From Mermis nigrescens (lineage: Eukaryota; Nematoda; Enoplea; Mermithida; Mermithidae), in NCBI GenBank assembly GCA_036768485.1, contig JAVLUZ010000151.1, forward strand, positions 1,582,419 to 1,646,418: a stretch of 64,000 nucleotides of DNA. The letters run 5' to 3'. Under the pieces are notes generated by a model. That model was not told the origin of the DNA. It searched no databases and worked only from the letters and a program-made list of their open reading frames with translations. This document shows, piece after piece, positions 7,029 through 42,238 of this stretch. The position numbers were made by a program, and so were the translations under genes. Position 1 is the stretch's first letter. The number at the start of each line of letters is the position of its first letter.

Positions 7029-8150
7029 GCGGCAGGCAGATGAATTAGAAAAGATTATAACAGATAGGCTAGGAATAGTCCTACAGGAGCAGCTAAGAGA
7101 TATTTGACAGCAAATAATGAATAATGATAATGACATTGCAAACACATCAGCACTTAACGATCTTTGTTTGTGCAATATAAGAAATAACTTTGGTTTAATG
7201 GTTTGTACATCAAAACCATTTTTGGGAACTCTTGGCAAACATTTTGGTGGATAGATTGCTAAATTTGAAGATTATTTAGCAATGCAAGGAATTAAAAACA
7301 CTTATGATAAACTAAAAAAACATTTTTAGAGTCATTTTTAAGAGGAGCAGCTTTAGTGCATATTGAAGATTTGAAGCATGCCTTTAATCCATCTTTAATG
7401 TATGATGCATATAAGCTTGCATGACAGAATGCATTTCCTAGTAATAAGGACTGTGATAGACAGCAAATCGTTTTAATGGAACAAAAGCAAAAACGTTCTG
7501 AGTCAGTTTCTGAATATCTTTTGGAGCTTAAAAGTTGGCATGTTTATCATATCCGGGTTTAGACATACAGACACGTGAAAACATTGTCAAACCATTATTT
7601 CAAAGAGGCATGCTAAGTGAAATTTGAGATGCAGTGAAATTTTGTGAATTTGCAAATTTAACTTTATTAGCTCAAGCTGCTAATAATGTTGAGTCACAAA
7701 TTTTGCATGCTGATATTTTACCGCATACAGCCGTGCAAAAAACGCAGCAAGTTTCTCATGTAAATGCACAAAGCAATGTTGAGCATACTTTAGAAAACGT
7801 TGTTAAGCAGCTAGAAATTTTAACGTCAATCACACTGAATAATACCAAAAGCAGTAATGCAGATGCTAAGGATTTTTGGCAAAACACACAAATGCCTGAA
7901 AATCACATTAGATTACAGTACCAAACTAATTGGAATCAAATGCAGGCAGATCAAAACTAACAAACAAATCAATTTTGTATCATCTGTGAGCGTAATAATC
8001 ACTCAACAAAAGAATGTAGAGCTTTATGTCAGTATTATAAATTAACTGGACATAAATCTGAGAGCTGTTGGAAAAAATCTTTAACTTCCATTACGTGTTT
8101 CAAATGTAACCAAAAAGGTCATCTTGCACATACATGTAGAAGTAATTTTC
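7029..8150 (+). pseudogene. gag: Gag of element A, with three zinc knuckles
   Basis: This is the structural protein of the retroelement, which would form the capsid and bind genomic RNA. A broken frame from ATG 7029 carries several stops. The central part (about 7260-7540) has capsid-like text including FEDYLAMQGI, FLRGAAL and RSESVSEYLLEL, which parallels the Gag of element B (AAKAAF and SESVNEYVEEL). The C-terminal part (about 7972-8143) contains three CCHC-type knuckles: CIICERNNHSTKEC, a variant CQYYKLTGHKSESC in which the second Cys is Tyr, and CFKCNQKGHLAHTC. The intact stretch at 7634-7960 links capsid and knuckles. It is clearly a Ty3/gypsy-type Gag and clearly inactive. Confidence 0.75.
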
Positions 8151-9230
8151 AGCAAATTACAAATACAAATAGACAAAGAAATATAATGCAGTCGCACCTC
8201 ACAAATTACAATCGTCTTAATTTCATCAATTTGACCGAGTCTGATAATCTGAAAATTCAGTTGCAGATGACAAATTCAGAAATTTTGACTATCAAGCTGA
8301 ATCATCCAGTCAATTTGAGTCAATTTGATGCCCTCGCCAAAGTACTGGATGGCACGCCCATATGAAATGTCAATCGTTTTTTCTCAGCCAAGCATCGCCT
8401 AACAAAAGATCCACAAGTTAAAGAATTGAAATGATTTGACATCAATACGTCACATAGCAAATCAGACAACAATGCATCCACGAAATGAAGCTATTTGCCA
8501 AGCGTTAGCCAGAAACCGGAAATTACGACCAACGTAGACAACCAGAGCACAAAAATTACGGAAGAATCAATAGTGTAGGATCATTTAATTGAGCCAAAAG
8601 CGGATGCACTTTCTTCAACGGATTATGGTCAAAGGGAAAGGAAAATTTTGTTACCTATGCTGTCTGAATACACTATTGCGCCATGACCATATAACTGGCC
8701 CCCAAATACAGCCAATGGTATGTATTATAGAAAGCATGCTGCTCAAAACTCGTATCTCACACCAAGTAATGCTTTGAGAATTCAAAATTTACTAAGCAGC
8801 AAACACAATCAAAAGGTCTCTAAAAAACCGGAAAATTTGGCTTCATCTCACAGTACTCGCTCAAAGAGTCCTCTAAAATTTTTTCCAATGTTTTTTTCAA
8901 TTTTTGCGATACTTGCTTTTACAGAAGCTAACAAATATCAGATTTGTTCACCTAATAAGTATGGTCATCCACTCGAAATTCCAAAAATATTTTGTGTGTT
9001 TTACCTGCCCTTGACCAGAAACCTATATTTTTGTCAGCTGTCATTTTTGTGCCTCACACTAAGCCATTCAGTGTACCAGCATATAAGTGTTCCATTAGAT
9101 CAAATACTGTGTCCACAAATGTTGGGTTCTTTGGGTCAAAGGGGATCACAGCGGAAAAACTGATTTTCAGATAGTCACTCCGCAATTGTGCAATAAAATT
9201 GCTTTTCAAAAAACTTTTTTTAATCAGTCT

Positions 9231-9740
9231 TTGAATGAAACATTTTATAACATCTGGTCTACACAAAATAAATTAGAAGTCTTATTTCACTAGTGCTGCA
9301 AAACTTTCTGCCATTCAGTTACAAATGCTATACTTGAATTTGGGAAAGTAGCAACTTACGATGGAAAAACAATTCTCAGCAACTTAGGGGATGTCAATCT
9401 TTGAATGAAACGTTTTATAACATCTGGTCTACACAAAATAAATTAGAAGTATTATTTCACTAGTGCTGCAAAACTTTCTGCCATTCAGTTACAAATGCTA
9501 TACTTGAATTTGGGGAAGTAGCTACTTACAACGGAAAAACAATTCTCAGCAACTTAGGGGATGTCAATCTTCAAATGAAACGTTTTATAACATCTGGTCT
9601 ACACAAAATAAATTAGAAGTCTGATTTCACTAGTGCTGCAAAACTTTCTGCCATTCATTTACAAATACTATACTTGAATTTGGGGAAGTAGCAACTTACG
9701 ACGGAAAAACAATTCTCAGCAACTTAGGGCATGTTGGAGG
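9231..9740 (+). repeat. Three tandem copies of a 170-bp unit within env A
   Basis: Unit starts are at 9231, 9401 and 9571, each beginning near TGAATGAAAC and ending AACTTAGGG. The copies differ by only a few substitutions, much less than the surrounding element differs from element B. The amplification is therefore more recent than the insertion. 170 is not a multiple of three, so each copy shifts the frame. Confidence 0.9.
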
Positions 9741-10196
9741 ATGCAGCCCTAACATTGGATTTTGCATCGCGCAAACTAACATTATTGTTTGGGATAGATC
9801 AAAGTTAATAAAATTATATCCATTCAAACGTAAAGGTGCTTATAATGTTTTGCTCACATGTTCTCACATAGTCGTAGAAGCATTACAAAGCGCATTTTGT
9901 GTAAAAAGAGGATATTTCTTTGATCCTAGATGCCGTTTTCTTAGCGCTTCTATTGAGACAGATCAAGGAATTTTAATACACACAGGTATGAATGTATCCA
10001 CATATTAACATCAAACGCAGCCTTATTTGCTTATTTCACCGGATAATACAGACCTGATAAAAGCAAAATTGAACTATTTGGAACAAAAATTGATTCAGTA
10101 CGAAGTACAGAATTTCAGACTAATTTGGTCAGAATTATGCATGCAGGCGCAATGCCATCTTGATCTAGTTTGGCAACTCTCAAAATTGGACGCAAC

Positions 10197-10465
10197 CATA
10201 CATGGGCAGCAAGAAAATTTTAAAGGGGGTCCAAGATTTTTTGAAGGTCAAAAAATGGCCTTAAAAATGGTGATATGGCAATAAAAACACCATTTTGCGA
10301 CATTTCTCATCAAGCACTATCCATTGGCATCAAAAAATTGCGAAAAAAACGAAAAAATTTTCAAAAATTGATTTCTGGCGGAGGGGGTCTTTTGATTTCT
10401 GGGGGGGGGGTCTTTTGGTTTCTGGGGGGTCCAGACCCCCCCAGATCCCCCCACGCCCATGTGTG
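10197..10465 (+). mobile_element. hAT-type MITE, family R1 (copy 1)
   Basis: A 269-bp element with ends CATACATGGGC and GCCCATGTGTG, flanked by the perfect 8-bp target duplication GACGCAAC (10189-10196 and 10466-10473). The interior has G-runs near both ends and a conserved centre (ATTGGCATCAAAAAATTGC). It interrupts env of element A within an Asp-Ala-Thr triplet that is duplicated by the TSD. Confidence 0.92.
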
Positions 10466-11166
10466 GACGCAACGCTAGGTGCTCAAGCAATTTTGCAACA
10501 CACAGACATCGCTGATTTTTGGGGTGAAGCCCTAGTATTTTGGAGCTGTCAGACTGTAAATGTTACACAAATGTACACAAATTTTTGAGTAAATGATACA
10601 TGCTACCTATATTTACCCGTAAAAGCAGGGGGTAAGATCATGTTTTTGATTCCAGGTAGCAACAATTTACCCTCTTCAAGTCCTACTATACCGTGTAATG
10701 TTGAGAAATTTGCATTTAATAAGAAACACGGAAATTGATGTACACATGCAGGTATCGCCCATACTAGTCTCATACCTGTACAAGTTGCATGGCATGGTAA
10801 TTTTTCGCTATTTTACTTTAATTTGTTGCAGATTGTTAATTTTGCTGCAGACCCTGTATATATTGTAAATAGTTTACAGCAATATGTTTTTTGCATGCAT
10901 CACATAGATAATCTCATTAATAACCTGATTAATTATATGTCTGAAATGGTGCTTAATGGTTTGTTATATGCTGCATTAACTGGCGGCAGAAAAGCCGTAG
11001 GGAATACACTTCTGAGGGCTGGAGAAGCTCCCAAACATGTCATTTATGGTCTACAAAAAGGATTTACAGAAAGTCTAAATAATTTATTAAAGGGCCCGCT
11101 TCAGATAATTATAAATATCGCCGTTATTGCTTTTATACTTGCTGGTATCATTTTTGTAGTTATTTG

Positions 11167-11170
<4 letters not shown>

Positions 11171-11225
<55 letters not shown>
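11171..11225. repeat. (CA)n microsatellite
   Basis: About 27 CA units immediately after the transmembrane coding segment of env A. It reads as a His-Thr tract and shifts or extends the cytoplasmic-tail coding region. Confidence 0.97.
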
Positions 11226-11228
<3 letters not shown>

Positions 11229-11292
11229 TTTTTGCTTTTCATGAAAAAGCGCATCAACGCATGAAACAGCCAATAATCAAGATAATTTTTCA

Positions 11293-11790
11293 TTGGGCCA
11301 AGCGTTAATTCAGTTAGCAAGAATTCACGCTCAAGCACCAAACAACAGACAGCAAAATGAGCGCAATACTGTAACCGCTCTTTGTGTAAACTCCTCAATA
11401 AAACGTTGGCCACATGTTTGTATCACTATTAACGATATACTTCAGATGGAGGCTATGATTGACTCTGGCGCAGCTCATTTGCTCATCAATAAAACGGTTT
11501 TAAACAAACTAGATGATGTGAAAGTGCTTCCATCTGTTATCAATGCATATGCAGCTAACAATCTCCTGATTACTCTCACTAGTTGTGCATATATTATTGT
11601 AGAAGTTGCGGATGTACAAGAAACAATTGTTGTGCACATACAAGCAAATTGTCCATCACCTGTTGTTTTAGGACAAAATTTTTTGAATCGTTTTTGCGGC
11701 TATACTGTAAATAATGAAAAATCATACGCAATATTCAGAAATGAGAAAATCGCATGTGAGGGACTGGCTTACAATCCTCTAAAATGTTGA
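11293..11790 (+). pseudogene. Retropepsin-like protease of element A
   Basis: This is the aspartic protease that would cut the Gag and Pol polyproteins. The active-site motif is IDSGAAH near residue 56 (about 11460). The flap and C-terminal half follow, with VVLGQNFLNRF, the typical hydrophobic-hydrophobic-G-x-x-F/W-L motif, near residues 133-143. The first 25 residues (MGQALIQLARI) align with the stretch between the TM segment and protease in element B (LGTALLNLVGM), confirming that protease follows env directly. The frame overlaps the end of the env frame by 16 bases, probably because of the (CA)n expansion. It ends at a stop where the RT part should follow. Confidence 0.8.
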
Positions 11791-12631
11791 GGAGCAGTAA
11801 GCCTTGATGATCACATTCTTTTGCCACCACATAGCATTTCTGAATTTTCAGCACTTTTTTCATCTCTTTATGAGCATGTTTCCACAGTCATATTTTAACC
11901 TACGCAAGCATTGTATGAAAAATTCGGAATTCGCTTCACAAATTTGATTGCACAACCAACTCAGCAGAGTATCATGATATCTGCATTAAATCAATTTAAT
12001 TGCAAAGTGTTACTGTATAAGAGCATGCACATAGATAGGCAGTGTAAAGTCCGTTTCGGAATCAGACATCAAAATACCGGAAACCTCAGCAAAGCAGTCA
12101 GACGCATCCACTGACAATTGGTTTAAACAGGTTGTAGATTTACAGGAAACCAATTTATCAGACGCACTAAAGAAACTTTATTAAAAACTTCGGCTAAATA
12201 TCCTAATTTATATGCTAAAAGTGATACAGAAGTAGGACAAGCTACTACAGTTGAGCATAGCATAAAAACAGGTAATAGTAAACCTATTTGCCGAGTTCCT
12301 TCCCGCATTTCCCCAAAAGGACGTGAAATTATACAAAAATAAGTCCAAAAGTTAGAAAAGCGAGGAATTATTCAAAAAAGTCAGTCGCCATGGTGCACTA
12401 ATGTAGTTTTGGTCCCAAAAAAGTAGATGGATTTTGAATGTGCATCGACTTTCAAGCATTAAATAAAGTCACCAAGAAAGACAGCTATCCGATTCTAAGG
12501 ATAGACAGCATATTTGATACTTTAGCAGGGGTTAAATATTTAGTACCCTAGATCAGGCAAGCACATATCATACAGTACCTATAAGTTCAGGTGATCAAGA
12601 AAAAACTTCCTTTAACACGCTGGATGGCATG
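11791..12631 (+). pseudogene. RT N-terminal remnant of element A
   Basis: Several frames carry Ty3/gypsy RT text. TTVEHSIKTGNSKPI at about 12246 corresponds to the usual H.I.TG...PI motif. It is followed by ISPKGREII, LEKRGIIQKSQSPW and a VVLVPKK block (about 12400), then an ECASTFK block in place of CIDYR. Sequence similar to DQEKTSFNT is reached at about 12595. The catalytic YxDD region, RNase H and the start of integrase are missing, removed at the boundary of the MITE at 12632. Stops are frequent and the fragment is inactive. Confidence 0.75.
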
Positions 12632-12894
12632 CACACATGGGCGTGGGAGGGGGGGGTTTGGGGGGTATGCACCCCCCAGAAGTTGAAATACCGAAATAAC
12701 CTCCCCCCAGAAATCAAAATACCCCCTCAGAATTTTTTTTTGCTTTTTTAGCAATTTTTTGATGCCATTGGATAGAGCTTGATGAGAAACGTCGAAAAAT
12801 GGTGTTTTTTGCCATACGACCACTTTTAAGACCATTTTTTGACCTTTAAATATTTTTCACCCCCCCCCCAGAATTTCGGTGCTGCCCACCTATG
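12632..12894 (-). mobile_element. hAT-type MITE, family R1 (copy 2, at a deletion junction)
   Basis: Reverse orientation of the copies at 10197 and 20240, with ends CACACATGGGC and GCCCACCTATG. The flanking 8-mers differ (ATGGCATG on the left, ATGGATAT on the right), unlike the other complete copies. The left flank is RT coding sequence and the right flank is integrase coding sequence. The element therefore sits exactly where about 1.5-2 kb of pol is missing. Confidence 0.88.
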
Positions 12895-13734
12895 ATGGAT
12901 ATTATTGCCGCAACAGTAGCAAGCATTTTTGTTACAAATATTGTATGCAAACATGGCGCGCCTCAAATAATTCATTGTGACCATGGCACAAATTTCACCT
13001 CCTCATTGTTCACTAAAGTCACTCGTTTGTGTAATACAATTAAGGTGCATACTGAACCATATCACCCAATTTCCAACAGGGAAATAGAACGTATGAACCA
13101 AACTTTAATCACTTGTATTCATATGTTTATTGATGATGAGTGGCAAAAAGATTGGGATATCTTTTTACCATTTGCCGCTTTTGCAACAAACATACATGTT
13201 AATGAAAGCACTGGGTTTTCAGCATTTGAACTCACCTATGGTCGCCAACCGTTATTACTGACTGACATAGCTTTCACCTATACACCTCTCACTCGCAACA
13301 ATCTTACCAATTTCACAAATCAATTGAAGCATTTTTTCTCTATTGCTAATGCAAAAGCAAATATAAACATCCTAAATTCACAAGAAAAATACACTAAGCA
13401 GAACAGAAAATCCTATTCTGTGCCATACAAAGTCGGAGACCTCGTACTCCAAATTTCACATACTGTCTTATCAGGCCAAACACCAAAAATTGCACACAAA
13501 CATAAAGGTCCTGTCAAAATCATAAATATTTCTTATCCGAATATTGAAATCGAAAATTTGCAAACACATACTGCACATGTTATTCACATAAATCATAGTT
13601 TGCCATATTATTCACATGTTCAAATTTTTTGTCTAGCTAGGCCACTTATATCACGTCTTCCAATTAGGGTTACTTCTTTCATGACTTGTGTACAGTGTTT
13701 TGATCAACAAACGAGGGTGTTTGTTGGTGGATGA
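12892..13734 (+). pseudogene. Integrase (C-terminal two thirds) of element A
   Basis: DDE integrase that would insert element cDNA. The fragment starts inside the catalytic core. IAATVASIFV, CKHGAPQIIHCDHGTNF (second catalytic Asp), YHPISNREIERMNQTL (catalytic Glu in the usual G.xER.N context) and ESTGFSAFELTYGRQP are all canonical Ty3/gypsy blocks. After about residue 180 comes a C-terminal domain with YKVGDLVL and HKGPVKI. The first catalytic Asp and the zinc domain are lost with the upstream deletion. The first codons come from the adjoining MITE, so the apparent start is not native. It ends shortly before the PPT and 3' LTR. Confidence 0.88.
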
Positions 13735-13740
13735 CGGGGA

Positions 13741-14140
13741 TGTCATGGGAAGTCTCATATTAATCTTTTACGATGTGCTTTTAATGTATTTACAAGCAAA
13801 CACTTAAGTTCTGAATCTAACATATTTTAATTAATTTGTTTATTCAATTCAAAGCAATTTACAGTGCCTATATCTTGTTATCTTTATCATACTGTACTAG
13901 ATCCTGTTTTGCAAAACTTTTTCTGAATGCTTTGATATTATGTACATAAATAATTTCCACAAGCACATATTGAACAACCTACGGTCAGGGTCAAATTGAT
14001 AAGCAGCGGTTTTTTTGTTGGGATGGCCGGTCAACTGGACAGCAGCAGAGCAGGACAGGATGATTAGTTTTTTTCCCATCTGATTGTCCTATGTACAGCG
14101 TCCTTGGTTTAATATTGTTAGTGTAGATTTTTGGTGGAAG
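13741..14140 (+). repeat. 3' LTR of element A (left part)
   Basis: Parallel to 6178-6560, including TTTACAAGCAAACAC, TTTACAGTGCCTATATC, GGCCGGTCAACTGGA and CCTATGTACAGCGTCC. Homology stops at GGTGGAAG (14140), where a TGTAAC...GTTACA segment begins. The remainder of such an LTR occurs separately at 48827-48985. Confidence 0.85.
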
Positions 14141-20231: not shown

Positions 20232-20239
20232 GTCGTCAG

Positions 20240-20511
20240 CATAGGTGGGCAGCACCAAAATTCTGGGGGGTGGGAGTGAAAAAATTTCTGGAGGGGGTGA
20301 AAAAATTTTTAAAGGTCAAAAAATGGTCTTAAAAGTGGTCATATGGCAAAAAAACACCATTTTTCGACGTTTCTCATCGAGCACTATCCAATGGCATCAA
20401 AAAGTTGCTAAAAAAGCAAAAAAAAATTTCTGTGGGGGTATTTTGATTTCTGGGAGGGGGTTTTCAACTTCTGGGGGGTGCATACCCCCCAAACCCCCAT
20501 GCCCATGAGTG
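20240..20511 (+). mobile_element. hAT-type MITE, family R1 (copy 3)
   Basis: 272 bp with ends CATAGGTGGGC and GCCCATGAGTG, flanked by the perfect 8-bp duplication GTCGTCAG (20232-20239 and 20512-20519). Same interior as the copies at 10197 and 40564. Confidence 0.93.
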
Positions 20512-20638
20512 GTCGTCAGTTTACTCTGCGGGCCATTTGTTGGCCAAGTCAGCTATAAGAATTGTAATACTGACAGCGAGACCCTGATTCTGGCCATCGG
20601 CATTCTCTTCTTGTAAAGTATAGAATGGTGAAATATAG

Positions 20639-25888: not shown

Positions 25889-26007
25889 ACCAATTTGGCA
25901 CCTAGATTGTCGGGGAAATAATCAAACAATCAAAGAATGTCGTTGGAAGATTTGGATCAAAGCAAATAATCGCAAAAAACGAAGTTTAGTTTAGCTGGCC
26001 ACAAATA

Positions 26008-29000
26008 ATGTCAAATACTGGTCAGAACTTTGTTTCTAAATCGAGTCCGATACGGCAAATAATAAATTTGACGCAGAAAAGATTGTCGTCATATTTGGAC
26101 GAGCTGTCAAATACTGATTTACGTTTTTCCTTGCGACTCAATGCGTCAAACGAAGAAAGAATAGTTGATTTGCAAGATGGCTTGTATCTAACGAGGAACT
26201 TGCTAAAAAAGATAGCTGGATCAATCGCTATTCTTAAAGAACAAAATACTGAATGGGCTTCGCTACAAAAAGTATTAGCAGACGAAGAATTAGTGCAAGA
26301 GGTAAAGCTATACAACGATTGTATTAGCATGCCACAAAATTACGTGGAAATTATGGATCAAGGCATTGAAGCGACTTATCTGCTTGAATCGAAGATCCTA
26401 GAAATACAAGACAGTTTACTACAATTACGATCTTCAAATTCACAACAAATACAACTTGGACAAAGCATTTTATCACCAGCTAGTGCTTTTGCTGAGCCAG
26501 CGATTCAGGTTCAAGTACCAAAATTACAATTGCCTGTCAACTATGGGGATCCACTGAAGTGGACAGAATTCTGGGACGCTTTCAATGCTTCCATAAATCA
26601 ACAACATATTCCGCCAGTGCAAAAATTCAGCTACTTGCTAAGCACGTTGAAAAGTAGTGCTTACAAAGCGATCGAGGGAATAGCTGTTACAAATGCAAAC
26701 TACAAAGATGCATTAGATATCTTGCATAAACGATTTGGCGATCAAAATATAATAAAAAGGACACTATACGTTGAATTGCGTTCATTACCTAATGCTAGTG
26801 GGCGCATAAATGAGCTAAGAAGAACCCTTGAAGGCATTGATTGCATAATTAGGCAACTTAAAGCACTTGGCGAAGATTTAGATCAGCCTACCCTAATAAT
26901 GCTGATTCTCGAAGAACTGCCAGCCAAAATTTTGCTAGAAATAAACAAGCTTAAAGGGCCTGGAATAACTTGGCATATCGATGATCTGAGTAAGAAATTG
27001 AATGAAATAATAACCATGAAAGGAGAAGTGTATCAAATTGTTCATAATGCATCAAATTCGAACGCTAGATTTCAAAATCAAGCAAAGCAAAGCTCAAATA
27101 CATTAAGTATGATTGAGGGTCATGCTGCCATGCCAGTAAACGAAAGAAGCAGTCAAACAGCTTCAAAACAAAAACGTTTTCCGTGTGCTTTCTGTTCTGG
27201 GGATCATTTAAATGATCAGTGCAATAAATACATAAGTTCTGATGAAAGAAAGAGAAAAATTCAAGAAAATGGGCTTTGTTTTCGATGCCTAAGACCTGGC
27301 CACAATGCAAAAACTTGCCGTTTTACATGTCCGTGCTCACATTGCAAAGGCAATCACAACCGTGCTTTATGCTTTAAGAAAAATGAAAACGGTCAAAATA
27401 TGCAACAAGCTGTGCTTCAAAATAGCAATATAATTGTGCAAAGCGATTTTTTGACAGCTTTTCAGCAAAATGCTGATCCAACAAATGAAGTAATGCAAAA
27501 TGAAAAGACAGAAAGTCAAAATGCGTGCCATTTAGCAAGTTCTGAAATTTTCGAACCAGTTCAAAATGCATCTGAAAAAGCATTAGCTTCACAAGTAACA
27601 CTTATGGTTTCTGAAGTTAATGTCTTGAATCCAATGAAACACAATGACGAATACCAAAGCATTTGCGCTTTCTTTGACTCAGGTAGTCAACGAACATTTA
27701 TTACAAACAAACTAAAACAAGCGTTAAACCTGAAAACGATTGAAAACAAAGTATTAAGCATTCACACGTTTGCTTCAAAAACACCGCAACAAATAAAATC
27801 GTCGCTAGTTAAGCTAGGTATCCATCAAAACGATGGAAAAATAAAAGAAATGTACTTAAATGCGGTTCCAACCTTAACAGAAAGACTGCAATTTGCAAAA
27901 ATTAATAGCTCAGAAGTTAAGACATTTGATGAAATGTTAAGCGGAAAATGGTTGAGTTCCGAATGGAAAAAACCCCATTTGCTGATTGGCATAGATTATT
28001 TCTGGGATTTTCTCGAATCTTGTCAGTCAGCTAAATTGCCTTCTGGATTATTTCTGATCCAGTCAAAAATTGGCCTGATTTTTTCTGGCAAAGAAATAGT
28101 GGCTAAAAATAATGCAGATTCTGAGTCAGCTTTAAGTATTTTGAAATCAGTGCCTGAAAATGAAACGTGCAATGAGTCTACTATGCTTAAAGCTGAGAAT
28201 CTAGAATATTTTTGGGACCTAGAAACAATAGGAATAAAAGATTCGCCACAAATCAATGACAAAGAGCTAGCATTAAAGAAATTCAATGATACAATAATAT
28301 TCAAAAACGGGCATTATCATATAAAATGGCCATGGAAAGATACATTGCCTGATTTGAAAGAAAATTTTGGCCTAGCTTATGGTCGTTTAAAATCGTTACT
28401 ACAGCGACTTGCTAGCTATCCTGAATTGCTCAAAAATTACAATGACATTATTCAAGAACAGCTAACGAAGGGAATAATAGAAAAGGTGGAAGATGTGAAA
28501 AATGACAATCTTCATCACTATCTCCCGCATCATGCAGTAATAACGCCGCTAAAAAATACAACAAAAATAAGGATTGTATACGACACTTCTGCAAAAGCAA
28601 GAAAAAACGAGAAAAGTCTTAATGACTGTCTTTACGCAGGTCCTGCTCTTATCCTTGACCTGTGCGGACTTTTACTTCATTTTCGAATGAACAAAATAGC
28701 AATAATTGCTGACATAGAAAAGGCATTTTTGCAGATCGCAATTCAAACACCGGACAGAGACGTTACTCGTTTCTTGTGGCTAACTGATCCAACAAAAGCA
28801 ACAACTGAGCAAAACGTGCAAGTATGCCGTTTTTGACGAGTAACATTTGGGGTTATCTCTAGCCCTTTTTTGCTAAACGCGACCTTACAATATCATCTGA
28901 ATAAGATTGATACCGAAAATGCTCAAAAAATAGCTAAGCACTTGTACATGGATAATTTAATAACTGGCGTAAACACAAACGATGATGCTGTGAAGCTCTA

Positions 29001-30045
29001 TAAAGAAGCAAAAAGTGATTTTTTAGCAGCTTCTTTCAATCTCAGAGAATGGACGTCAAATTCAGCTGAATTTAGAAATCAGCTGCCAGAAAATGACTTG
29101 CTGAAACAAATTGAAGTCAAAATTTTAGGCATTCCATGGAACGTAAATGATGACACCATAAAATTAGAAATCCAAATAAATGAACGAACAAATACAGCTA
29201 ATATGACAAAACGAACAGTTCTTAAAGAACTGGCGAGTATTGACGATCCTTTAGGCCTCATTGCGCCTCTCATAGTTCAAGCAAAAATTTTCATCCAAAA
29301 ATTGTGGAAATTAAAGTTATCCTGGGATGAAAATTTACCAGAAAACCTAGAAAATGAGTGGAATGAAATAAAAGCTACCTGGAAAATGGCTGAGCCATTT
29401 ATTATTCAACGAATCGTGCCTTATTTTTCTGAGAGCCCAATTTTTGAGCTAATAGCATTTGTAGATGCATCTAAGTCTGCATATGCGACGGCTATTTATC
29501 TTAGAATAAGCGGTCAAAATCGAGCTACAAAAGCAGAAATTATTTTTGCAAAAAGTCGATTAGCGCCAATTAAACAAGTAACTTTACCGCGCCCAGAGTT
29601 ACTTTCAGCAATAATTGGGCTAAAAGCCACCAAATTTGTCGAAAAACAAATAAAGGTACCTATAACACAAAAAATATTGTTTACTGACTCAGAGTGCGTC
29701 CTACATTGGATAAAATTGCCAAAACCACTGAGCACTTTTGTCAGAAACAGAATCAACAAACTTAAAGAAGCAAAAGATTTCACTTTTCGCTACACAAACA
29801 CAAGACAGAAGCCAGCTGACATCGCTACACGGCCTTATCAACTTGCTGATCTTCAGTTTAATGAGCTCTGGTGGCATGGCCCGCCATGGATAGCTCAAGA
29901 TCAAAACACATGGCCAGAAGGAAATCTACCTGAAGTAAAACCTGAACTAATGGAATATTTTATGGCTGAAACAGCTAGTGAAGTAAAAACATATACAGAA
30001 ATTAATCAAGAAATAGTGAAGCCACTGATTTTGGATCTGAATTGA
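26008..30045 (+). pseudogene. BEL/Pao Gag-protease-RT-RNase H polyprotein, with an in-frame stop
   Basis: The first open segment is 942 residues (26008-28836). After the TGA at 28834 the same frame continues to a second TGA at 30043. The N-terminal 160 residues are coiled-coil-like. Residues about 165-310 match DUF1759 (KLQLPVNYGDPLKWTEFWDAF). Residues about 388-455 hold Cys/His knuckles (CAFCSGDHLNDQC, CFRCLRPGHNAKTC). The protease active site is FFDSGSQRTFI near residue 557. RT begins at about residue 850 (KIRIVYDTSAKA), with IADIEKAFLQIAI near 902. The stop falls just before FGVISSPFLLNATLQYH, and the catalytic YMDN follows at 28944. RNase H text is at about 29450-29840 (FVDASKSAYATAIY, FTDSECVLHWI). 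This is the normal BEL order and spacing. The nonsense changes make it non-functional as assembled. Confidence 0.93.
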
Positions 30046-30075
30046 ATATCAAGCTTTGCTAAAGCAACGCGAATT

Positions 30076-31500
30076 ATGGTGTACGTTTTAAGGTTCCTAA
30101 AAGCGAAAATCGAACACTTTTTGCCAGAAAGACATGCTGAATTAAATTTCACAAACGCTCAAAATTGTGGAACACAAATTACCACAGACAAAATAAAATT
30201 AGCAGAAGAAATGCTGATACACCAAATGCAAAAACGCCATTATGCTGCATTCTTTGATAAATTTTCGAAAAATTCAGAAAAGAAAAATATGCAAAATCTA
30301 GGAATAAAATCATATCAGAAAGGCATACTACGTTGTTATGGTCGTCTTGAAAATGCAGATATTATTGAGTCAGCTAAATTTCCAATCTTATTGCCAAAAG
30401 ACAATCGTTTAACAGAGCTAATCATTATGGCGAAACACAAAAAAGTGATGCACTTTGGAGTAAGCCATACATTAGCAGAAATTCGGCAAGAATGATTCCT
30501 AAAGGACGCAGCACTATAAAAAAGGTCCTGAACAAATGCTTTATATGTCGAAAATACAATTTGGGTCCTTACAAATTACCAAAAATGCCTGCTTTACCAA
30601 AAGAAAGAGGAAAAAGAACAAAGCTATTTGAATTTATTGGTCTAGATTATCTTGGACCAATGAATGTCAAAATCAACGAAAAAATTGTTCGAATGTGGAT
30701 ATGCTTGCTCACATGCTTAACTACGAGAGCTATACACTTAGAACACGTTCAAAGTTTAAAAGCGACGGATTTTTTGAACTGCATAAGACGCTTTATTGCA
30801 AGGAGGGGAAGACCAGCAAAAATAATTTCAGACAATGCCCCCCAGTTCAAATTAACTTCAAAAGCAGTTCATACAGTTTGGGAAAACCCACTGAATGACG
30901 ATTCTGTATTGCTATACTTTGCAACTGAAAAAATTGAATGGAAATTTATCACAGAAATGGCACCTTGGCAAGGCGGCTTCTACGAACGCTTGATAGGCTT
31001 AACAAAACAAGCAATTAAAAAATCAGTAGGTCGAATATTGTTGGAACACGAAGAATTCATAACATTACTGTCAGAAGTTGAAGCAGTGATCAATTCGAGA
31101 CCTCTAATGTACATAGTTGATGAATTGACAGAAATCTGTGCTCTACGACCCATTGATTTTCTTATTCCCTTCAGAAAAATAGGGACTCCTCAGCTTTTAG
31201 AGGAAGAGAATGATCCTAGCTATTTACCAGAGCTAAATTCAAAACAAAAGCTTTTGGAGTATTGGCAGTCAAGTCAACAAATTCTTGACAAATTCTGGTC
31301 AATATGGCACCGTGAATATTTAGTAAATATAAGAGAAAAGCAACAATTGGAACAGGCATCCAAGAATTCAAGCAGCTAATGAGCCTAAAGAAAACAAACT
31401 AGTCTTAAATAAGGAAGACAATTTGCCTCAAGGTTCCTGGAAAATAGGAAAAATCACTGAACTAAACAATAGTTCTGATGACAAAGTTTGATCTGCAAAA
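30076..31500 (+). pseudogene. BEL/Pao integrase, frameshifted
   Basis: Integrase for cDNA insertion, continuing the pol frame after the TGA at 30043. The zinc-binding HHCC domain is split by an apparent one-base loss near 30491: HFGVSHTLAEIRQE lies in one frame and CFICRKYN in the next. The core is intact in the second frame (30492-31379). It has GLDYLGPM with the first Asp at about 30647, IISDNAPQF with the second Asp, and APWQGGFYERLIGLTKQAI with the catalytic Glu at about 30984. The C-terminal region moves to a third frame after about 31360 (ENKLVLNKEDNLPQGSWKIG). It has a TGA at 31489 and joins the env-bearing frame (LLPSGNMLNRPVNHLFPLE, DUF5641-like). Confidence 0.92.
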
Positions 31501-31650
31501 GTATTGCTACCTAGTGGCAATATGCTAAATCGGCCTGTTAATCATTTGTTCCCCCTAGAAATAGTTGAAAATGAATCTGAAATAAATAATGATGAATCTG
31601 TTGGGACCATAAAGATATTATCATCGGCAATTGCGACAGAATTCAGAAGC

Positions 31651-33957
31651 ATGGTTTCAAAATCAATGATACTTTTTGTGCTCATAATTATCTGCCTTAT
31701 TGGTCACGTTAGCAATGAAAACGGACCGCATTACTGCAAAGAAAACTCGCGTGGAAAAATAATTCATGCAGAAACCTGTGTTCGAATCGGGATTGTCATA
31801 AAAAACTTGACAAATGGAAATTTGTGCTGGACAAAAATAGCGTGTTCAAGTGGCCACCTAAGAAAAGATGCTACATGCGGTTCATTATGTTGCTGTCCGT
31901 CCTGGGCAAGTGACTGTGTTAAAAATCATAAAATAATACCAGAAACAATAGGCAATTTAACAGAAATACTAACTTCGGCAAAACCAAATATTTGTTCTAT
32001 GACTGAAACGTCAGATTGCGATCCTATTGCAACTCATGCAATGATACCTCAAATACAGCTTTACAATAATAAAACTTATTTTGTCAAAAACCTTCAGTTA
32101 ACTTATCAAACTGGGCAAAAAATTCGATACGTTTGCGTGGGGAGGGTTGGTCCACAAATAGGGACCCCTGAATTTTGCCAAAATCACAAATGCGAAAATC
32201 AAGGTTCGAAGCTATGTTACCACAAACAAAAGGAAATAGTTAGATATACAAATGATGATGGCTCAGTTCCTATCAAAGCTTGGGGTCTTATGCCTTTAAC
32301 CTTTTATGGAACGAAAAAATTGAAACCGCAAGAAACAGATTGTTCAAAATGCGATCTGCAATGTATTCAAGGTGGCATTAATGTAACAACGGAACAAAAT
32401 GTGGGCTAATTGAAATCTGCTCTCGTCCTTATTTTTACAAAGTAAGCTTGCCAGAAAGAATCGAAAGCTTACAGTTTCCAAAAGACGTCATTATTGTGAA
32501 TCATGAATTTGATGTCAAATTTTGGTCAAACGGTCTTTTAGTTAAACACACAGGTATCCACTGCACAGCCTCGCCTTTTTGCGAAATGATAAAGTGTTAC
32601 ATGTGCACGCAAATGCTCTTAAATCCTCATTGCGCTCCAACCACTTACCTATTGCTATTTTTTGTAATAGTCTACTTTACAGCAGGAACATTCAATTTCT
32701 TGCTTTAAATCCTTTGATCAATTACAAAAACTACGATATGCCTGCTACGTTTCATCTTAAGTATCGCAAAATTATTCAGAATGTGCATTTGTGCAATGAA
32801 TAGAACTTATGCATCAAACAATGAATCTCAACCATTTTTACCAAAAATCTTGAGTGCTAATCAGTCTAGTTCAAGATTCATATATCGCCCTTCAGCAAAA
32901 ACTTCAATACTCATTATTTTCATTCTACTTGCAATAATACAATCGAATTTATCCTGCACTGAAGTAACAACACTAACTGCTCAAAAATCAGTGTGCTCAC
33001 TCTCAGAAAATCAGTCAATGTCATGCATATTAACAGAAACAACTAGACTTTCTCTGGTACCCCAGGGACAAGATGCCTGCTTACTTGTAAAAAATCCGAA
33101 TTCTGAGCCACTTGGAACAATTGCAGTAGAAGTCGAAAAAATTAAACTTCGTCTGTTTAGCACATAGTGATTACTTCACGCGCTCTTTTTCTATGAAAGT
33201 AGAATCTGTAAAGCGATGTGGAGGAATGGGATCATGTTCTGGCAAAATATGTGCTTTGACAATGACAGAGACAAAAATCGAAGAACTCGCTGGAGCAAAT
33301 AAAACTCCAGGCTTTACTTATTGCGCCGAAAGCTGCAGATGCGCGGCATGTGGTTGATTTACTTGCTCTTCTGCATGCTTATTTTACCGCACATACGCCT
33401 CAGCTGAAACACCGACGGTTTACAAAATTTTTAGCTGTCCTGTATGGGAATTTAATGTAGACATAACAGTTTGGCTTAATTTGCAAGATGAAAATAGTCA
33501 ACACGCTTTTACACTCAGACCAGGAGGAAGCAAAGAATGGAAAAACCTAAAAATAAATTTGCCTAAAATATCTAATCCACCGGTACCTATATTAGGAATA
33601 CAATTTTTGACAGATGGGGTTAAAACTGTTATGGTAAGAGCTTCAGCATCTGGTCAGCCCATCTCAGATACCGTTGGCGCCTTGCAATGCAAAACCAAAG
33701 AAAAGGCTGAAATTTTTGATTGTTATTTCCCTCACGATGTCTGCAACTGTCAGAATAGGGATACCAGAGCTAGCTGTTCATGCGCCAAAATGGTTTTGGA
33801 ACCCCTATTTAACAAAATTGATAATGTTTTACCTATAAAGAGCCAAGGAATTTTAATATCTGGCTTAGGAGCAAGAAGCGAACGTTGTAATCAAACTTCT
33901 TATGGCCGGAATGTTGGAAAATACGCAAAATTTGGTCAATTATTCAGCGAAAAATGA
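31651..33957 (+). pseudogene. env: Env-like glycoprotein of the BEL/Pao element (phlebovirus G2-like)
   Basis: An endogenous viral-type glycoprotein, described as it stands. An internal Met at 31651 begins a good signal peptide (MILFVLIIICLIGHVS). A Cys-rich N-terminal half follows to 32409, including TCGSLCCCPSWASDC and CSKCDLQC. Frames then change at about 32410 and 32709. The segment 32781-33167 has a hydrophobic stretch (SILIIFILLAIIQSN) that could be the signal for the second subunit. About 33200-33400 shows CSGKIC, PGFTYCAESC and SACLFYRTYA. This Cys-dense pattern is typical of phlebovirus Gc/G2-like class II fusion proteins carried by BEL elements. 33481-33957 continues with CNCQNRD and SCSCAKM. 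The last open frame runs into the 3' LTR without a clear C-terminal membrane anchor. Stops and frameshifts make it inactive. Confidence 0.8.
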
Positions 33958-34445
33958 TTAAACTAAGCTTTAAATATGACCTTTTGCGAAATATTCACTT
34001 TCTGATCGGTTTTGAAATTATGCAACCACGCAAAACAGTCACGCTTTCTTAGCAAGCAAATGAACAATCTACCGCGTAATGACATTCAGCAAAATATATT
34101 TTGAACGCTAAAACCAACAACAGCATGATACAGCAACGTGACACAGTGATTCAGTATGATTTTTTGTTTCGTTTTATTATATAAACGTGTTTAATATTGA
34201 ATCTATCAGTGACAGCAGGAGAATAATAGTTGTGTTGTGATTGATTCGTAAGAAAAGTGTCGTAGCTTGTAGCTTGGAGCGGATGACTTTAGATTTATAG
34301 CTTGTAGTTTGTATTCAACTTAGATAGAATTTTTTGTATTAGCAAAGAAGTAAGCCACATTCAAATACTTAAATACTCAAATAATTTAAATACGTCAGCG
34401 ATGCGCCAAATTTGAACCTACGCTGAGCTTCAAGAATTCGCGACA
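33912..34445 (+). repeat. 3' LTR of the BEL/Pao element
   Basis: 534 bp, TGTTG...GCGACA. It differs from the 5' LTR at only a few positions (for example AACAGTCAC versus AATGGTCAC near 34034 and a one-base insertion near 34398). Confidence 0.93.
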
Positions 34446-35566: not shown

Positions 35567-35661
35567 ATAGAATGAATTGAATTGGGGTGTACTTGATGAT
35601 GGAAGATTTTTGATGTGATGGGAGATATGATGGAAGTGAAATGAAAAAAAAAATTTTAATA

Positions 35662-36370
35662 TGATGGAAGACAAAATACGTGACTTGAGGTAGCCATCGA
35701 ACAAGCGAGGCAAAAAGTTAAATATGTGAGGGATTGAGGAAAGTGATTTGAGTGAATTTCGTTTGTTGCCTAAATTAGTTTTTGGTTTGTTGCCTGATGT
35801 CACGTAGCCCATCAAATATTTAAGTCGCGTGTTTTATTGATTGTGGGGCATTGTTTGTTATTGGTTTGGTATTGATTCAGTTTTGTCTTCGGTTCGGTTT
35901 TGGTTTGTCTTTTGAGTTAGCTTGTTTGTCTTAGTAAAACATGTGTTGGAAAATGAGATAAAAAAAATTTTTGATATGATGGAAGACAAAATACGTGACT
36001 TGAGGTAGCTGTCGAACAAGCGAGGCAAAAAGTGAAATACGTGAGGGATCGACGAAAGTGATCTGAGTGAATTTCGTTTGTTGCCTAAATTAGCTCTTTC
36101 GTTTGTTGCCTGATGGCACGTAGCCCATCAAATATTTAAGTCGCGTGTTTTATTGATTGTGGGGCATTGTTTGTTATTGGTTTGGTATTGATTCAGTTTT
36201 GTCTTTGGTTCGGTTTTGGTTTGTCTCTTGAGTTAGCTTGTTTGTCTTAGTAAAACATGTGTTGGAATATTCTCGGTACTTACCACATAAGTCTTAACCT
36301 TAAGACCTCCAAACTAGCTGAAGTCCCCGACCGCAACTCAGTCCCCCACACCTAAACCACGACCGTAACA
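35662..36370 (+). repeat. 5' LTR of element B, with an internal ~315-bp tandem duplication
   Basis: The end (CACCTAAACCACGACCGTAACA) immediately precedes a primer-binding-site-like sequence. The copy at 48373-48769 is a single-length version of about 397 bp (TGATGGCGG...CCGTAACA). Here the block starting ATGATGGAAGACAAAATACG occurs at 35661 and again at 35976, both running to ACATGTGTTGGA. Confidence 0.8.
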
Positions 36371-36372
36371 AG

Positions 36373-36390: not shown

Positions 36391-36395
36391 TTAAG

Positions 36396-36404: not shown

Positions 36405-36492
36405 GAAAACCGTGTGTTTTGACTTGGTTTATTTGTGTGTTCATTTACTGACAGGGTGTGAGGGAAATTCCCCATACATCCGCTCTAAAACG

Positions 36493-37024: not shown

Positions 37025-37225
37025 ATTCATATTGAGAGCTGATTTAATTTCAATTTCATTGCTAAACTAAGCAAATACCTTTTATTGGTAAAATCCGTGA
37101 ATAAAATACGGTAAATATCGAATTATTTTAATCGAGTAAACTAAGTGTTTCATAATATCACTCTGGATCCTGATCATCATTCGGATACCCCAGCAAAAAA
37201 CACTCGTCAAGCAGTAATCGATAAA

Positions 37226-38761
37226 ATGACATCGCAAACTGCAGCTTCAGTAATCGATTCCACTGTAAAGAACGCATTAAAATCGCTTCTTTCAGCTCTA
37301 CATGATAAACTAGACACGATAGAGCAGGGGTTGCAAAATACGATCACACCCACCAACCCACCGACTCGGACACCTCGAGGTCCCACCCATCTGTTTAATT
37401 TACGCCCTCCATCCATATATTCTGGAAATTTTGGCGATAATTTTACAGAATGGGAAGAAGAATTTTCGAAATTTATGCTTTTACAGGGTATTAACCCTCA
37501 AGATGATGAATTTTGCATAAATTATCTCGAAACGAATTTAGGTGGAGCAGCAAAAGCAGCTTTTAAGCGAATTCAAAATAACCGACCCAAGCCCACCACA
37601 TATGCAGAATATATACAACATCTAAAAACTGTTTTTCCTGATGGACGCGATAGTGACGTATATCAGCAGTTAATCTATGATAAAAAACAGAAAAATTCAG
37701 AGTCTGTAAATGAATATGTTGAAGAACTCAGAAAATTTGCACGAGTTGCTTATACTACTTTGGATGAAGATTCGAGAGAAAATATATTAAAACCGATTTT
37801 TCTTAGGGGTCTACTCCCTCACATAAGGGACAAAATTAAATATAGAGAATATAACTCCTTAAACGAAGTTCTTAAATGTGCTCATTTTGTAGAGTCACAA
37901 GTATTACGTGACAATTTAAACCATGTCGTATCTGAAAATATATTCACTAATTCAGAAAAAATATAATGCATGGAGTTGATGGAGGCCCAAATGAGGGAGA
38001 TGGCGTGGCGTTTGGCCCGCCAGGAGCGAGGAAATGGGCATCAGGCGTCTAATCGTCCACCTTTTTGGCCGGCAACCGCCGAACGACGCCAGTGGTGCAA
38101 GAGGTGTTGCACTAATCGAAGCCACACAATGGCTACATGCTGGCATATTCACGGCCAGCAGCCGCAGCATGTCAGTCGGCCAATTTGGCGCCACAACGGC
38201 AACAGAATATCGCTGGTGGAGCAGCGCCCTAAGCCGCGCTTTATAAGTGAGTCACAAATACCGTCTGACACTCAAATGAGGCAGCAATCTACCTCCCAGG
38301 GGAGATGCCCATTGTTGTCACAAAATCGACAACAAAATCGCCCATTTTACCGTCAACCAACAAATAATTTGATTTCTCACGACCCCCTAGAAAATATCGA
38401 TAATGATGACTGTAATTACGGCATCATGACCAACATGGTCCCACAAATGTTTTCGAGCAATGACCCACAGGAAAATTTTCCGATACATATTAATACAAGT
38501 GAAAAATACATAAATATTGAATCTGACATGGGAAAATATCGATTAAAAACTATTCAAAACTATTCGGAAAATATCGAATCTGAAATTGGAAAATTTCGAT
38601 TAATAACTATTCAACACGATTCTGAAAATTTCAAATCAGATATCGAAAAATTTCGATCAGAAACAACTCAGATTGATCTCGAAAAGATTGAATCGATAGA
38701 AATTGACAAAATTAATTCAAAAGCACCAAAAAATCTTTGTCAATTGAACACCAGAAACTGA
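37226..38761 (+). pseudogene. gag: Gag of element B, with an in-frame stop before the nucleocapsid part
   Basis: Capsid and nucleocapsid precursor. The first ATG in the open frame is 37226, as the frame opens upstream only at a GTG. Residues (from 37226) about 65-230 carry the Ty3/gypsy gag domain: FTEWEEEFSKFML, then NEYVEELRKFARV, then FLRGLLPHIRDKI. The frame meets TAA at 37964 and then continues in the same frame to 38761. That second part has a basic stretch and one Cys/His cluster (CKRCCTNRSHTMATC, close to CCHC spacing). A repetitive acidic tail follows in which ESDMGKYRLKTIQ-type units recur about four times (38520-38710). The TAA may be a lesion or a read-through site. It precedes a candidate splice acceptor for env. 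Confidence 0.8.
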
Positions 38762-38762
38762 A

Positions 38763-38781
38763 TTTTCCACTTCTATTACAG
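38763..38781 (+). promoter_or_regulatory. Candidate 3' splice site upstream of env in element B
   Basis: TTTTCCACTTCTATTACAG, pyrimidine-rich and ending in AG, lies 2-20 bases after the gag stop codon and 32 bases before the env ATG at 38814. It is the expected location for an acceptor producing a spliced env mRNA. Confidence 0.5.
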
Positions 38782-40339
38782 AGTGCTGGTGCGGCAAGTG
38801 CGAGTGCAAGCCCATGGCACCAAACCCACCGGTGCCCGCCTTGGAAAGCCTGACGACAGAAATGGACGCTGAGCCAATCACATTTGCCCAGCTCATGGAT
38901 GAGGTAATGAGGGAAACCCCCGTTGAAGAACCCTCCATGGAGCTGCAAGCAGGTGTGCTGACTCAGATGGTGGCGGCTCAACCCTCACCACCGCAGGAGG
39001 CCATCAGCAAGCCGCAGACCAAGCTCACACAGTCGTCAGAGCAGCCAGATGCCAACCAGGCGCAGGTACCAGCAGAGGCTCCATACTGGATTCCCAGAAT
39101 CCCGGTTTGTTTCGACCTGGAGGCAGAAGATGATCTTGCTGCCGCACTGCAATCAGCTGAGCTCGAATCAGAAGGGCAGATGACGACCCGAGAGATGTCA
39201 GAATCGCCTGCCCATGTTTTGGATGCCGGCGAGTCCCGTTTCAAACTCGCCAGCTCCACTGATTCGAGCAAAAGCATTGCATGCAGGCAGCAACGGGACG
39301 CGCAACGCCAGCAGCGAAAATGTTACTGCCAGCATTGTGACGCAGAGTACGAGCAAGAAACTTGGCTCAGCAAGGAAAGCCAAGTTCTCAACATCGGCCT
39401 GGATATATTACACTGGAAGCAAAAGTTGCTCCACGCTTTGGGCCCTACAGAGAAAACCGGTCTGCAACAGCAGATCGATAATGCGAACCAAGAGATTCGG
39501 CGCATTAGTAAGCTAGTTTTTCTATCTTTTACTAGCGTATTGATTCTTGCTATAACCTGCACATTTAAGGGTACACACAGCAGGCCCGCAAGCAAAAGCG
39601 GCGGAGAAATGAATAGGCGAATTCGCCGTGGCAGCAAGCAGATACCAAGTTACATCATATTAATTTTCTCTTGTGTATTTGGTTTATCTTGCGTTGCTGC
39701 CAATAAAAATGACAATTTATTTGATAATAAAAGAGACACAGAATATTTAATGTGTGGCAAAAGCAGTAGTGGGACAGCTCTGGATATCCCCAGATCCCTA
39801 GACTGTAAATTTGTTGTTAAAAGCCAAAAATCGGCTCAAACTTTTGATGCAACAGTTTACACTCCAAAAAGTACTCCCACCATGGAATTAGCATATAAAT
39901 GCTATACCCGAACACAAACTGTGTGCACGAATATGGGATTTTTTGGCTCAAAAGGTATAGTGCGAGATACCATGCAAATTGAACCTTTACATCATAAAGT
40001 TTGTGAAGGTATTTTTCACTCGAAAACGCACAATGAGCGTAAACTTTTCAAACTCCCAAATGGTTTTTGGTCCACAGACAACACTTTAAAAGTGGATTAT
40101 ACGTACTGTTGTCACGACTCATGTACTACAGTAGCAAACACTATTCTTGAAGAGGGTACAGTAGCCACATTTGATGGTAAAGTATTAACTTCTGACCTCG
40201 GAGATGTAGGAAACTGTACGTACAATATGGGGATGTGCACTCGAAATAACCAAACCATTAATTGGGAAACGAACCAGAGGGACATGGACTGCCCCGTTAT
40301 TTTGAAAGGTACCTATGAAGCCAAATATTCTCACCCTTA

Positions 40340-40538
40340 CAGTCAAGACCACAAGTAACGTGACTCAAGCGCAGGCATGACAGGCAACAGGCGCCTGTGA
40401 CCTGCCTGTGAATCGGCCAGAATTTTATATTGGTAAACACGCGCATCAAAAGAAAATTGCCTGTGCAATGCGTGTCACATTGACTGCCAGGCGCCTGTAG
40501 GACATGCGCTTGAGTGACGTTACTTGTGGTCTTGACTG
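40340..40538. mobile_element. Tc1/mariner-type MITE in env B
   Basis: 199 bp with inverted ends CAGTCAAGACCACAAGTAACG and its complement. It is preceded by TA, and followed by AA where TA is expected (one change). The right half recurs at 48043-48146, there followed by TA. Internal short palindromes (CAGGCGCCTG) are present. The flanks form one continuous reading frame if the insertion is ignored. Confidence 0.75.
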
Positions 40539-40563
40539 AACGTAGTAATTGAGGACTTACAAG

Positions 40564-40825
40564 CATACATGGGCAGCAAGAAATTTCTGGGGGGGGTGCA
40601 AGATTTTTTTGAAGGTCAAAAAATGGCCTTAAAAATGGTGGTATGGTGATAAAAACACCATTTTTCGACGTTTCTCATCAAGCACTATCCATTGGCATCA
40701 AAAAATTGCGAAAAAAGCGAAAAAATTTTCAAAAATTGAATTCTGGGGAGGGGGGTATTTTGATTTCTGGGGGGTATTTTGGTTTCTGGGGGTGCATACC
40801 CCCAAACCCCCTACGCCCAGGTGTG
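40564..40825 (+). mobile_element. hAT-type MITE, family R1 (copy 4)
   Basis: 262 bp with ends CATACATGGGC and GCCCAGGTGTG, flanked by the perfect 8-bp duplication CTTACAAG (40556-40563 and 40826-40833). Inserted in env of element B only 25 bases from the Tc1-type MITE. Confidence 0.93.
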
Positions 40826-41563
40826 CTTACAAGCCTCCTTAACCTTGCGAACCAGCTTTAAACTGTGTAAACACATAAAGCGAGAATGGCTAACAAGGCA
40901 AGGCTTAGTTATACAACTTGCCCCGGGTAAACCGAACCCTTTTAACTTTACATCACCAATCACTGCACCTTCTAAGGATGCAGCCATAATAATTAACGCT
41001 GATCCTGTCGATGCAAAATTGGACTATTTAGAATCCAAATTGCTCGAACTCGAACAGCATAAATTCAAAAAATTATGGCTAAAAATGTGCCATATGTCTC
41101 AAAACACACTAGACATTGTCTGGCAACTTTTAAGCTTTGACGCCACGATGGGCGCCAGAGCATTGCTCCAACGTACTGATATAACCGCTGAGTTTACAGG
41201 GGAAGCACTAACAGTTTGGAAATGTAACAAAGTCAAACCGCATAAAATCTATTGGGACCTAAAGGTCAATAATACTTGTTACAAAAATTTACCGGTCATT
41301 GTAAACGACCAGATTTATTATGTACTTCCTGGTTCCCAAGAGCTCACAACTTTTTCACCAAAAGTAGACTGCAACCATCGTACATTACCAATCTATAAAG
41401 ATCAAGGTAAATGGTTCAGCCTTTCGGGACCAACCCATGTAAACCAATTTCATGTTAGCATGCTATGGAGTGGAAATGATAGTTTCGTGGACTTTACAAC
41501 CCCCAGATTTACCACGATAGACTATCAGACCAGCCATATGCCCCAGCAGCATTAGCTCATTAT

Positions 41564-42238
41564 GTGGCAAAAACGCAGCAAATAGAGCAAACTTTAGCTA
41601 ATTTAGTCCGCTACACAGCAGACATATCTTTACAACCAAATCTTGTGCATGATAGCTTAACTGGCGCAGGAGCAGCCATTAAGAGCACACTCGAAGGAGC
41701 AGAAAATGTTCTCGAGCGAATTACCTCACACACAGGTAATAATATAAATTCTGGCCTGACAAATATTTTGCAGGGTCCAGTACAGCTACTACTTAATGCA
41801 ATTATAATTGTAGCGCTGATCGCTGGTTCTGGTTATCTAGCATATTTCATTTTAATGTGCTATTTAAACCATCGGCGAACTAGGCGAACTTATCGCCCAC
41901 AAACACCATCACCACTCATTCAACCCAGACGACCGCCGCGCAGATCACATATTATGCGTGCACGTACACCCAGTATACAATCCCATTCTCTGGGAACAGC
42001 CTTACTGAATTTAGTAGGTATGACAAAACAGGAAAATCAAGCACAGCGAACTCCTCTTACACAAGAGCAACAAACTACTGTAATGACAATTACACAAAAT
42101 CCCCAGACCAAAAGGTCACCATATATTGATGTCCTTATACAGAATCAAATATGGGCAACAGCTATGATTGATACTGGAGCTACTTACTCCTTAATATCAT
42201 CATGCATAGCTGACCAAATCAACAGACAGAATGAATAA
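41564..42238 (+). pseudogene. Env transmembrane part fused in frame to retropepsin (element B)
   Basis: One open frame of 224 residues. Residues 1-70 are a membrane-proximal helical region (EQTLANLVRYTADI, TGAGAAIKSTLEGAENVLERI). Residues about 76-101 are a transmembrane segment (LLLNAIIIVALIAGSGYLAYF). Residues about 103-140 are a basic, Pro-rich tail. About 150-165 (LGTALLNLVGMTKQ) matches the start of the protease frame in element A. Residues about 185-224 begin the aspartic protease, with catalytic IDTGATYSLI at Asp203. The frame ends at 42238, and protease-like text continues for about 80 bases in another frame (LKAIGTWSFND). The fusion means protease, and presumably RT and integrase, would be made downstream of Env in the same polyprotein unless separately expressed. 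It parallels 10940-11790 in element A. Confidence 0.78.

Follow-up and report, generated by a model that had tools for sequence, protein, structure and literature searches.

Where a retroelement with long terminal repeats (LTRs) carries an env gene, its genes are taken to follow the fixed order gag-pol-env, and Pol as a rule enters particles in the form of Gag-Pol; in foamy viruses, too, env stands behind pol. A 64,000-nucleotide stretch of the Mermis nigrescens genome (contig JAVLUZ010000151.1, positions 1,582,419-1,646,418, forward strand; in the following "the window") raises the question whether this order can change, and with it the way in which Pol is made. The window is repeat-rich animal DNA with a G+C content of 36.75% and a single 100-base gap (45403-45502), and holds two damaged LTR elements, A and B, in which an initial annotation had placed an env-like gene between gag and the protease (PR). 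On the basis of sequence comparison, we consider it almost certain that the gene order is gag-env-PR-RT-IN, traced as far as integrase (IN) behind reverse transcriptase (RT) in A and as far as PR in B. There is also a strong case that A and B go back to two members of a single retrovirus-like LTR lineage, now diverged from each other and present here as decayed copies. This lineage would combine this order with a captured env of unusual type.

Gene order in elements A and B

Element A is bracketed by an LTR pair, between which Gag, a glycoprotein with a transmembrane (TM) segment, PR, RT fragments and IN follow each other on one strand (Table 1). RNase H, most of RT and the start of IN are missing. 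Of the RT that had been annotated initially, a colinear series of fragments stood, all of them weak matches; in Pfam the same stretch reaches 0.062 with RVT_1 and 0.0036 with Spuma_A9PTase, both below cut-off. Gag had been drawn from 7029 onwards: homology supports the capsid region given in Table 1, and 7029-7322 is without Gag support. The other parts of both elements were recovered at or near their first positions by Pfam, PDB, tblastn and hydropathy. In the PDB, the integrase of A matches integrases at 6.8e-7, chains named PFV (prototype foamy virus) at 2.7e-6 and Ty3 at 2.3e-5, and the Pfam family rve reaches 0.0027, below the cut-off. Since only 13 bases lie between the end of the integrase open reading frame (ORF; 13734) and the 3' LTR, no env follows the integrase. 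An env 3' of integrase is thereby excluded at this one locus, where the LTR pair brackets the whole element and IN adjoins the 3' LTR. The usual order, with env behind integrase, is present in the same window in element C, which served as a control: a phlebovirus-G2-type env (PF07245, 3.4e-44) lies 3' of its integrase.

Table 1. Elements A, B and C and associated repeats, with positions in the window
Feature	Position	Strand	Evidence and remarks
A 5' LTR	6185-6570	+	bounds are those of the alignable repeat; 87.8% identity to 13748-14140 over 394 columns
A Gag capsid region	7323-7717	+	internal stops; tblastn with B Gag, 33-42% identity
A zinc-knuckle (nucleocapsid) frame	7961-8365	+	PF00098, 3e-4, 21.2 bits (cut-off 20.8)
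A splice-acceptor-like site	8366-8387	+	AG ends at 8387; 3' of gag; rank 5 of 395 AG sites
A env ectodomain	9037-10819	+	stop-broken; tblastn with B env ORFs at 9037-9162 and 9183-9843 (43-53% identity) and, for a further part, 9931-10200 and 10466-10819 (35-40%)
Short mobile insert in A env	10193-10465		repeat family by self-comparison
A env C-terminal region	10847-11188	+	tblastn with B TM region, 26% identity
A TM segment	11105-11161	+	hydropathy 3.13
A linker and aspartic protease (DSGA)	11245-11790	+	PF13975, 1.6e-6, above cut-off; tblastn with B linker and PR start at 11290-11514, 29% identity
A RT fragments	12127-12613	+	weak colinear matches to RT structures, PDB E 0.25-0.97
Short mobile insert in A pol	12631-12894	-	inverted repeat of 10193-10465
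A integrase core and C-terminal region	12850-13734	+	frame starts within mobile insert
A 3' LTR	13748-14140	+	direct-repeat partner of 6185-6570
Short mobile inserts, two other places	20281-20515, 58311-58485		same repeat family as the A and B inserts
Element C, BEL/Pao	25356-34445		LTRs 25356-25888 and 33912-34445, 97.2% identical; younger
LTR-like sequence 5' of B	35639-36371	+	316-base tandem duplication; 95% identical to 48380-48770
B Gag capsid ORF	37145-37966	+	PF03732, 3.3e-7
B gag-frame continuation past one stop	37967-38761	+	ORF; knuckle-like C/H cluster by eye only
B splice-acceptor-like site	38762-38781	+	3' of gag; rank 1 of 359 AG sites
B first env ORF	38748-40358	+	first ATG 38814; C-terminal third matches A
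B mobile insert	40560-40825	+	same family as A inserts; own 8- to 9-base duplication
B env fusion-protein core	40866-41555	+	PF24664 Monjiviricetes_fusion, 1.5e-20; PF06208 BDV_G, 2.5e-5, below cut-off
B TM, linker and protease start (DTGA)	41483-42238	+	single open frame; TM 41801-41857

Element B spans 37145-42238 and runs through Gag, glycoprotein and TM segment into a protease, within which it ends abruptly. Its gag frame is interrupted by a stop, and the reading frame shifts between the env core and TM. The continuation of the gag frame has no significant Pfam match, and the protease start matches PF13975 at 0.0048, below the cut-off. The LTR-like sequence 5' of B likely belongs to this element. 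A pairing with 42683-43131 (73-79% alike) as the LTRs of B was set aside: as the 5' sequence is 95% identical to 48380-48770, 42683-43131 is probably not the other end of the same insertion. The stretch 48380-48770 belongs to a region (48200-48983) in which LTR-like sequence is followed, at 48828-48983, by a segment 88.5% identical to the leader of A (6568-6723); this region is possibly a further, third family member, and no coding part was found there. At the C-terminal end of the B gag frame lies a 57-base tandem repeat (38512-38664, 2.7 copies).

The comparison of the two copies supports the order. When five pieces of B were run by tblastn against the whole window, four matched A on the same strand and in the same order, with 26-53% identity overall, and the piece 37967-38758 had no match in A. 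The best scores of the four pieces on A (52.8, 73.9, 91.3 and 52.8 bits) compare with maxima of 25.0, 25.4, 28.9 and 25.4 bits in 300 dinucleotide shuffles of the A interior. Apart from a match of the B Gag to 23741-24217 (see below), the other matches in the window had E values of 0.09 or worse, some of them via the mobile insert inside one query. The Env blocks that the initial annotation had matched between A and B are borne out, at 35-53% identity in the ectodomain and 26% in the TM region. The same junction is found in two copies at 26-53% identity, and therefore it is older than both and was propagated. This agrees with the earlier claim that gag, env and PR stood in this order before either element was inserted: from Gag through env, TM and linker to PR, A and B are colinear. 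The initial annotation had also allowed for env segments that entered A and B separately; a self-comparison of the window at E 1e-8 gave no repeat pair around env that would mark it as a separate insertion.

Several points weigh against a lineage with this order. There are only two copies, both broken, and an LTR pair is present only at A, for which neither a target-site duplication nor a primer site could be made out. B is without RT, integrase or a proven 3' LTR, and its protease is cut off. Relatives are also missing from the collections searched: three pieces of B found nothing at E up to 1 in a protein database, among candidates of 0.55-1.75 times the piece length, a limit that excludes full-length polyproteins; three pieces had no relative among viral contigs; and the B env core matched no phage record. 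PHROGs gave no match for the env core and only weak transposase matches for integrase, the PDB sequence search nothing meaningful for Gag or protease, and Rfam no match.

The damage to A and B could speak for a secondary rearrangement, either a tandem dimer of a gag-pol-env element with an internal deletion or a stray glycoprotein gene that recombined into the element, and Jingchuvirales glycoprotein fossils do occur near gypsy fragments in insects, according to excerpts of a survey (PMC10084718). However, deletion within a dimer should leave LTR or gag sequence between env and PR, of which none was seen, and the shared junction must be older than both copies; we regard rearrangement as very improbable. 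Even less credible, to the point of being negligible, is a host gene or solo viral fossil that came to lie by chance inside two damaged elements. Solo chuvirus glycoprotein fossils are known (excerpts of PMC7642597 and PMC10084718), but in A and B env has a shared position and shared neighbours, and its junction to PR is conserved. If A and B indeed belong to one lineage in which env stands between gag and pol, they show that the order can change.

Type of the glycoprotein and relation to known elements

The initial annotation had named no type for env, and the type is a second unusual feature. The B segment 40764-41552, which lies in the second env ORF (40764-41555), matches PF24664 (Monjiviricetes_fusion) at 2e-20 with 72.8 bits (cut-off 27) and PF06208 (BDV_G), a related family, at 3.4e-5 with 22.9 bits, below its cut-off of 27; the equivalent piece of A has a match to BDV_G with an E value of 0.044, in an overlapping part of the model. 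These profile matches make it very probable that env encodes a chuvirus/bornavirus-type (Monjiviricetes) glycoprotein. By hydropathy, the B env has a signal-peptide-like segment and a C-terminal TM, and its first ORF contains two hydrophobic segments (39504-39560 and 39642-39698) with a furin-like motif between them, 5' of the part that matches A. Against this assignment, no glycoprotein family is significant in Pfam for the A env pieces or for B 38748-40358. The matching N-terminal env frame of A (8687-9160) has no signal-peptide-like segment at the hydropathy cut-off used, the PDB sequence search gave nothing meaningful for the B env core, and a structure model of this core from 4 alignment rows was not interpretable (mean predicted local distance difference test, pLDDT, 36.6).

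Element A resembles the Metaviridae (Ty3/gypsy) in its LTR pair, knuckle Gag, retropepsin and an integrase closest to Ty3 and foamy types, and by LTRs, protease and integrase it is of Ty3/gypsy type. The position of env departs from the family profile: A and B have env between gag and PR, whereas the profile of the International Committee on Taxonomy of Viruses places env, in those members that have it, downstream of integrase (PMC7879559; this and the other papers given by PMC number are cited for excerpts of their text). The env of Errantivirus is of baculovirus type and Troyka is described without env (PMC12440569); unlike Errantivirus, the B env core matches PF24664 and no F or errantivirus env family. 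Among LTR elements, the mosquito BEL/Pao element Anakin likewise carries a glycoprotein from this broad virus group, namely that of a chuvirus (PMC7642597). In contrast to its BEL/Pao pol, A has PF13975 and a Ty3/PFV-like integrase without DUF1758 or Peptidase_A17, and the control, element C, matches both of these families (Peptidase_A17 at 6e-48).

Capture of a fusion protein from a negative-strand RNA virus is shared with TelKA of bdelloid rotifers, which differs in that it carries a paramyxovirus-type F as ORF3, 3' of pol (PMC5408684). The hookworm element Atlas and other nematode belpaoviruses likewise hold a captured RNA-virus glycoprotein, and Atlas joins Env and Pol in one Gag-Pol-Env polyprotein; it differs by a BEL/Pao pol and by an Env that comes last and is of the class II phlebovirus type (PMC9094657). 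An atypical Env and the RT motif YVDN are given there as marks of nematode belpaoviruses (PMC9094657), and the RT motif of element C is YMDN. With foamy viruses (Spumaretrovirinae), in which Pol is translated from spliced RNA and Env has a long leader with a furin site (PMC7828637), A and B would share a gag-free pol from spliced RNA, if it exists, and the furin-like motif in the Env of B; their Env is of another type. Should the proposed lineage be real, a gypsy-type element would have captured a fusion protein of the chuvirus/bornavirus type, an event for which excerpts of a 2023 survey contain no clear Gypsy case (PMC10084718).

In the open-licence PMC literature, which leaves Repbase and GyDB outside its scope, no description of a gag-env-pol order was found among the matches listed, and "gag-env-pol" together with "retrotransposon" gave 0 papers. 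Excerpts of PMC10309623 (on Cer1), PMC8672886 and PMC12583693 do not describe this order either.

Expression of Env and Pol

An env behind gag and in front of pol raises the question of how both are translated. In B, the best acceptor-like site (38781) lies 20 bases past the stop of the gag frame and 33 bases before the first env ATG, and the A site (8387) lies 22 bases past the end of the knuckle frame; two of the four A sites that score higher sit in a later mobile insert. Candidate donor-like sites (GT[AG]AG) are present in the 5' regions of both elements. The joint chance of both acceptor placements is about 4e-4, a rough figure for a place chosen after looking. Because acceptor-like sites stand directly 3' of gag in B and in A, we lean towards an env made from a spliced RNA with its acceptor at this place. 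It speaks against this that the score, computed for all AG dinucleotides, is home-made and simple, and that the location was picked after looking.

For Pol, the sequence of B suggests a direct connection to Env. TM, an 84-codon linker and the start of PR share one frame without a stop, so that Env and Pol may be fused, a proposal to which we give slightly less than an even chance. The openness of the linker is a weak argument, since about 2% of linkers of this length would be free of stops by chance at the local base composition and since a second frame of it has only one stop; its partial conservation in A is a better one. It likewise counts against a fusion that in A the frame of TM is not that of PR and that a CA repeat (11171-11225) separates the two.

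The following scheme would accommodate these observations. A Ty3/gypsy-type element would have taken up a glycoprotein from a negative-strand RNA virus of the chuvirus/bornavirus type. Its full-length RNA would make Gag, a spliced RNA with an acceptor directly 3' of gag would make Env, and translation of the Env tail would continue into PR-RT-IN, giving an Env-Pol precursor. Pol would then be carried into the particle along with Env, and its own protease would release it at the inner side of the membrane, while the captured fusion protein would let the particles enter cells. The replication enzymes would thus be made as the cytosolic tail of an entry glycoprotein (Env-PR-RT-IN, from spliced RNA), and Pol would be packaged via Env instead of as Gag-Pol. 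We offer this combination, captured env included, tentatively, and give it slightly less than an even chance.

An even chance is what we assign to the same gene order with Env and Pol made separately, where Pol would come from a second spliced RNA in the style of foamy viruses, from initiation at an internal site or through recoding from gag, and the open frame of B would be the N-terminal part of Pol. ATG codons in the linker of B fit such a separate Pol, as do the different frames of TM and PR in A and the precedent of a spliced Pol RNA in foamy viruses (excerpts of PMC7828637); the single open frame from TM to PR in B argues for the Env-Pol precursor instead. A lineage in which env stands ahead of pol would make the packaging of Pol through Env a testable question.

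Later damage and other features of the window

Part of the damage in A and B is due to short mobile inserts, which we take to be hAT-like miniature inverted-repeat transposable elements (MITEs) by the length of their duplications and by their end repeats. The insert in the A env and the one in B are flanked by different direct duplications of 8 to 9 bases (by eye) and therefore entered A and B independently, after the order was set. The insert in A pol has no matching duplication at its ends, and the loss of the RT remainder, RNase H and the integrase start would be explained by a deletion beside it. In addition, the env of A contains a 170-base triplication (9224-9734).

Apart from these elements, a gag-like ORF at 23531-24310 reaches PF03732 at 0.0049, below the cut-off, and the Gag of B matches 23741-24217 with an E value of 7e-4. 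Blocks of 1-2495 recur inverted at 45503-47432, directly past the 100-base gap, with 90-95% identity, which reflects either a large inverted duplication or an effect of the assembly. On the minus strand at 62572-63656, two ORFs that by eye resemble a GIY-YIG end and part of an RT may belong to a Penelope-like element.

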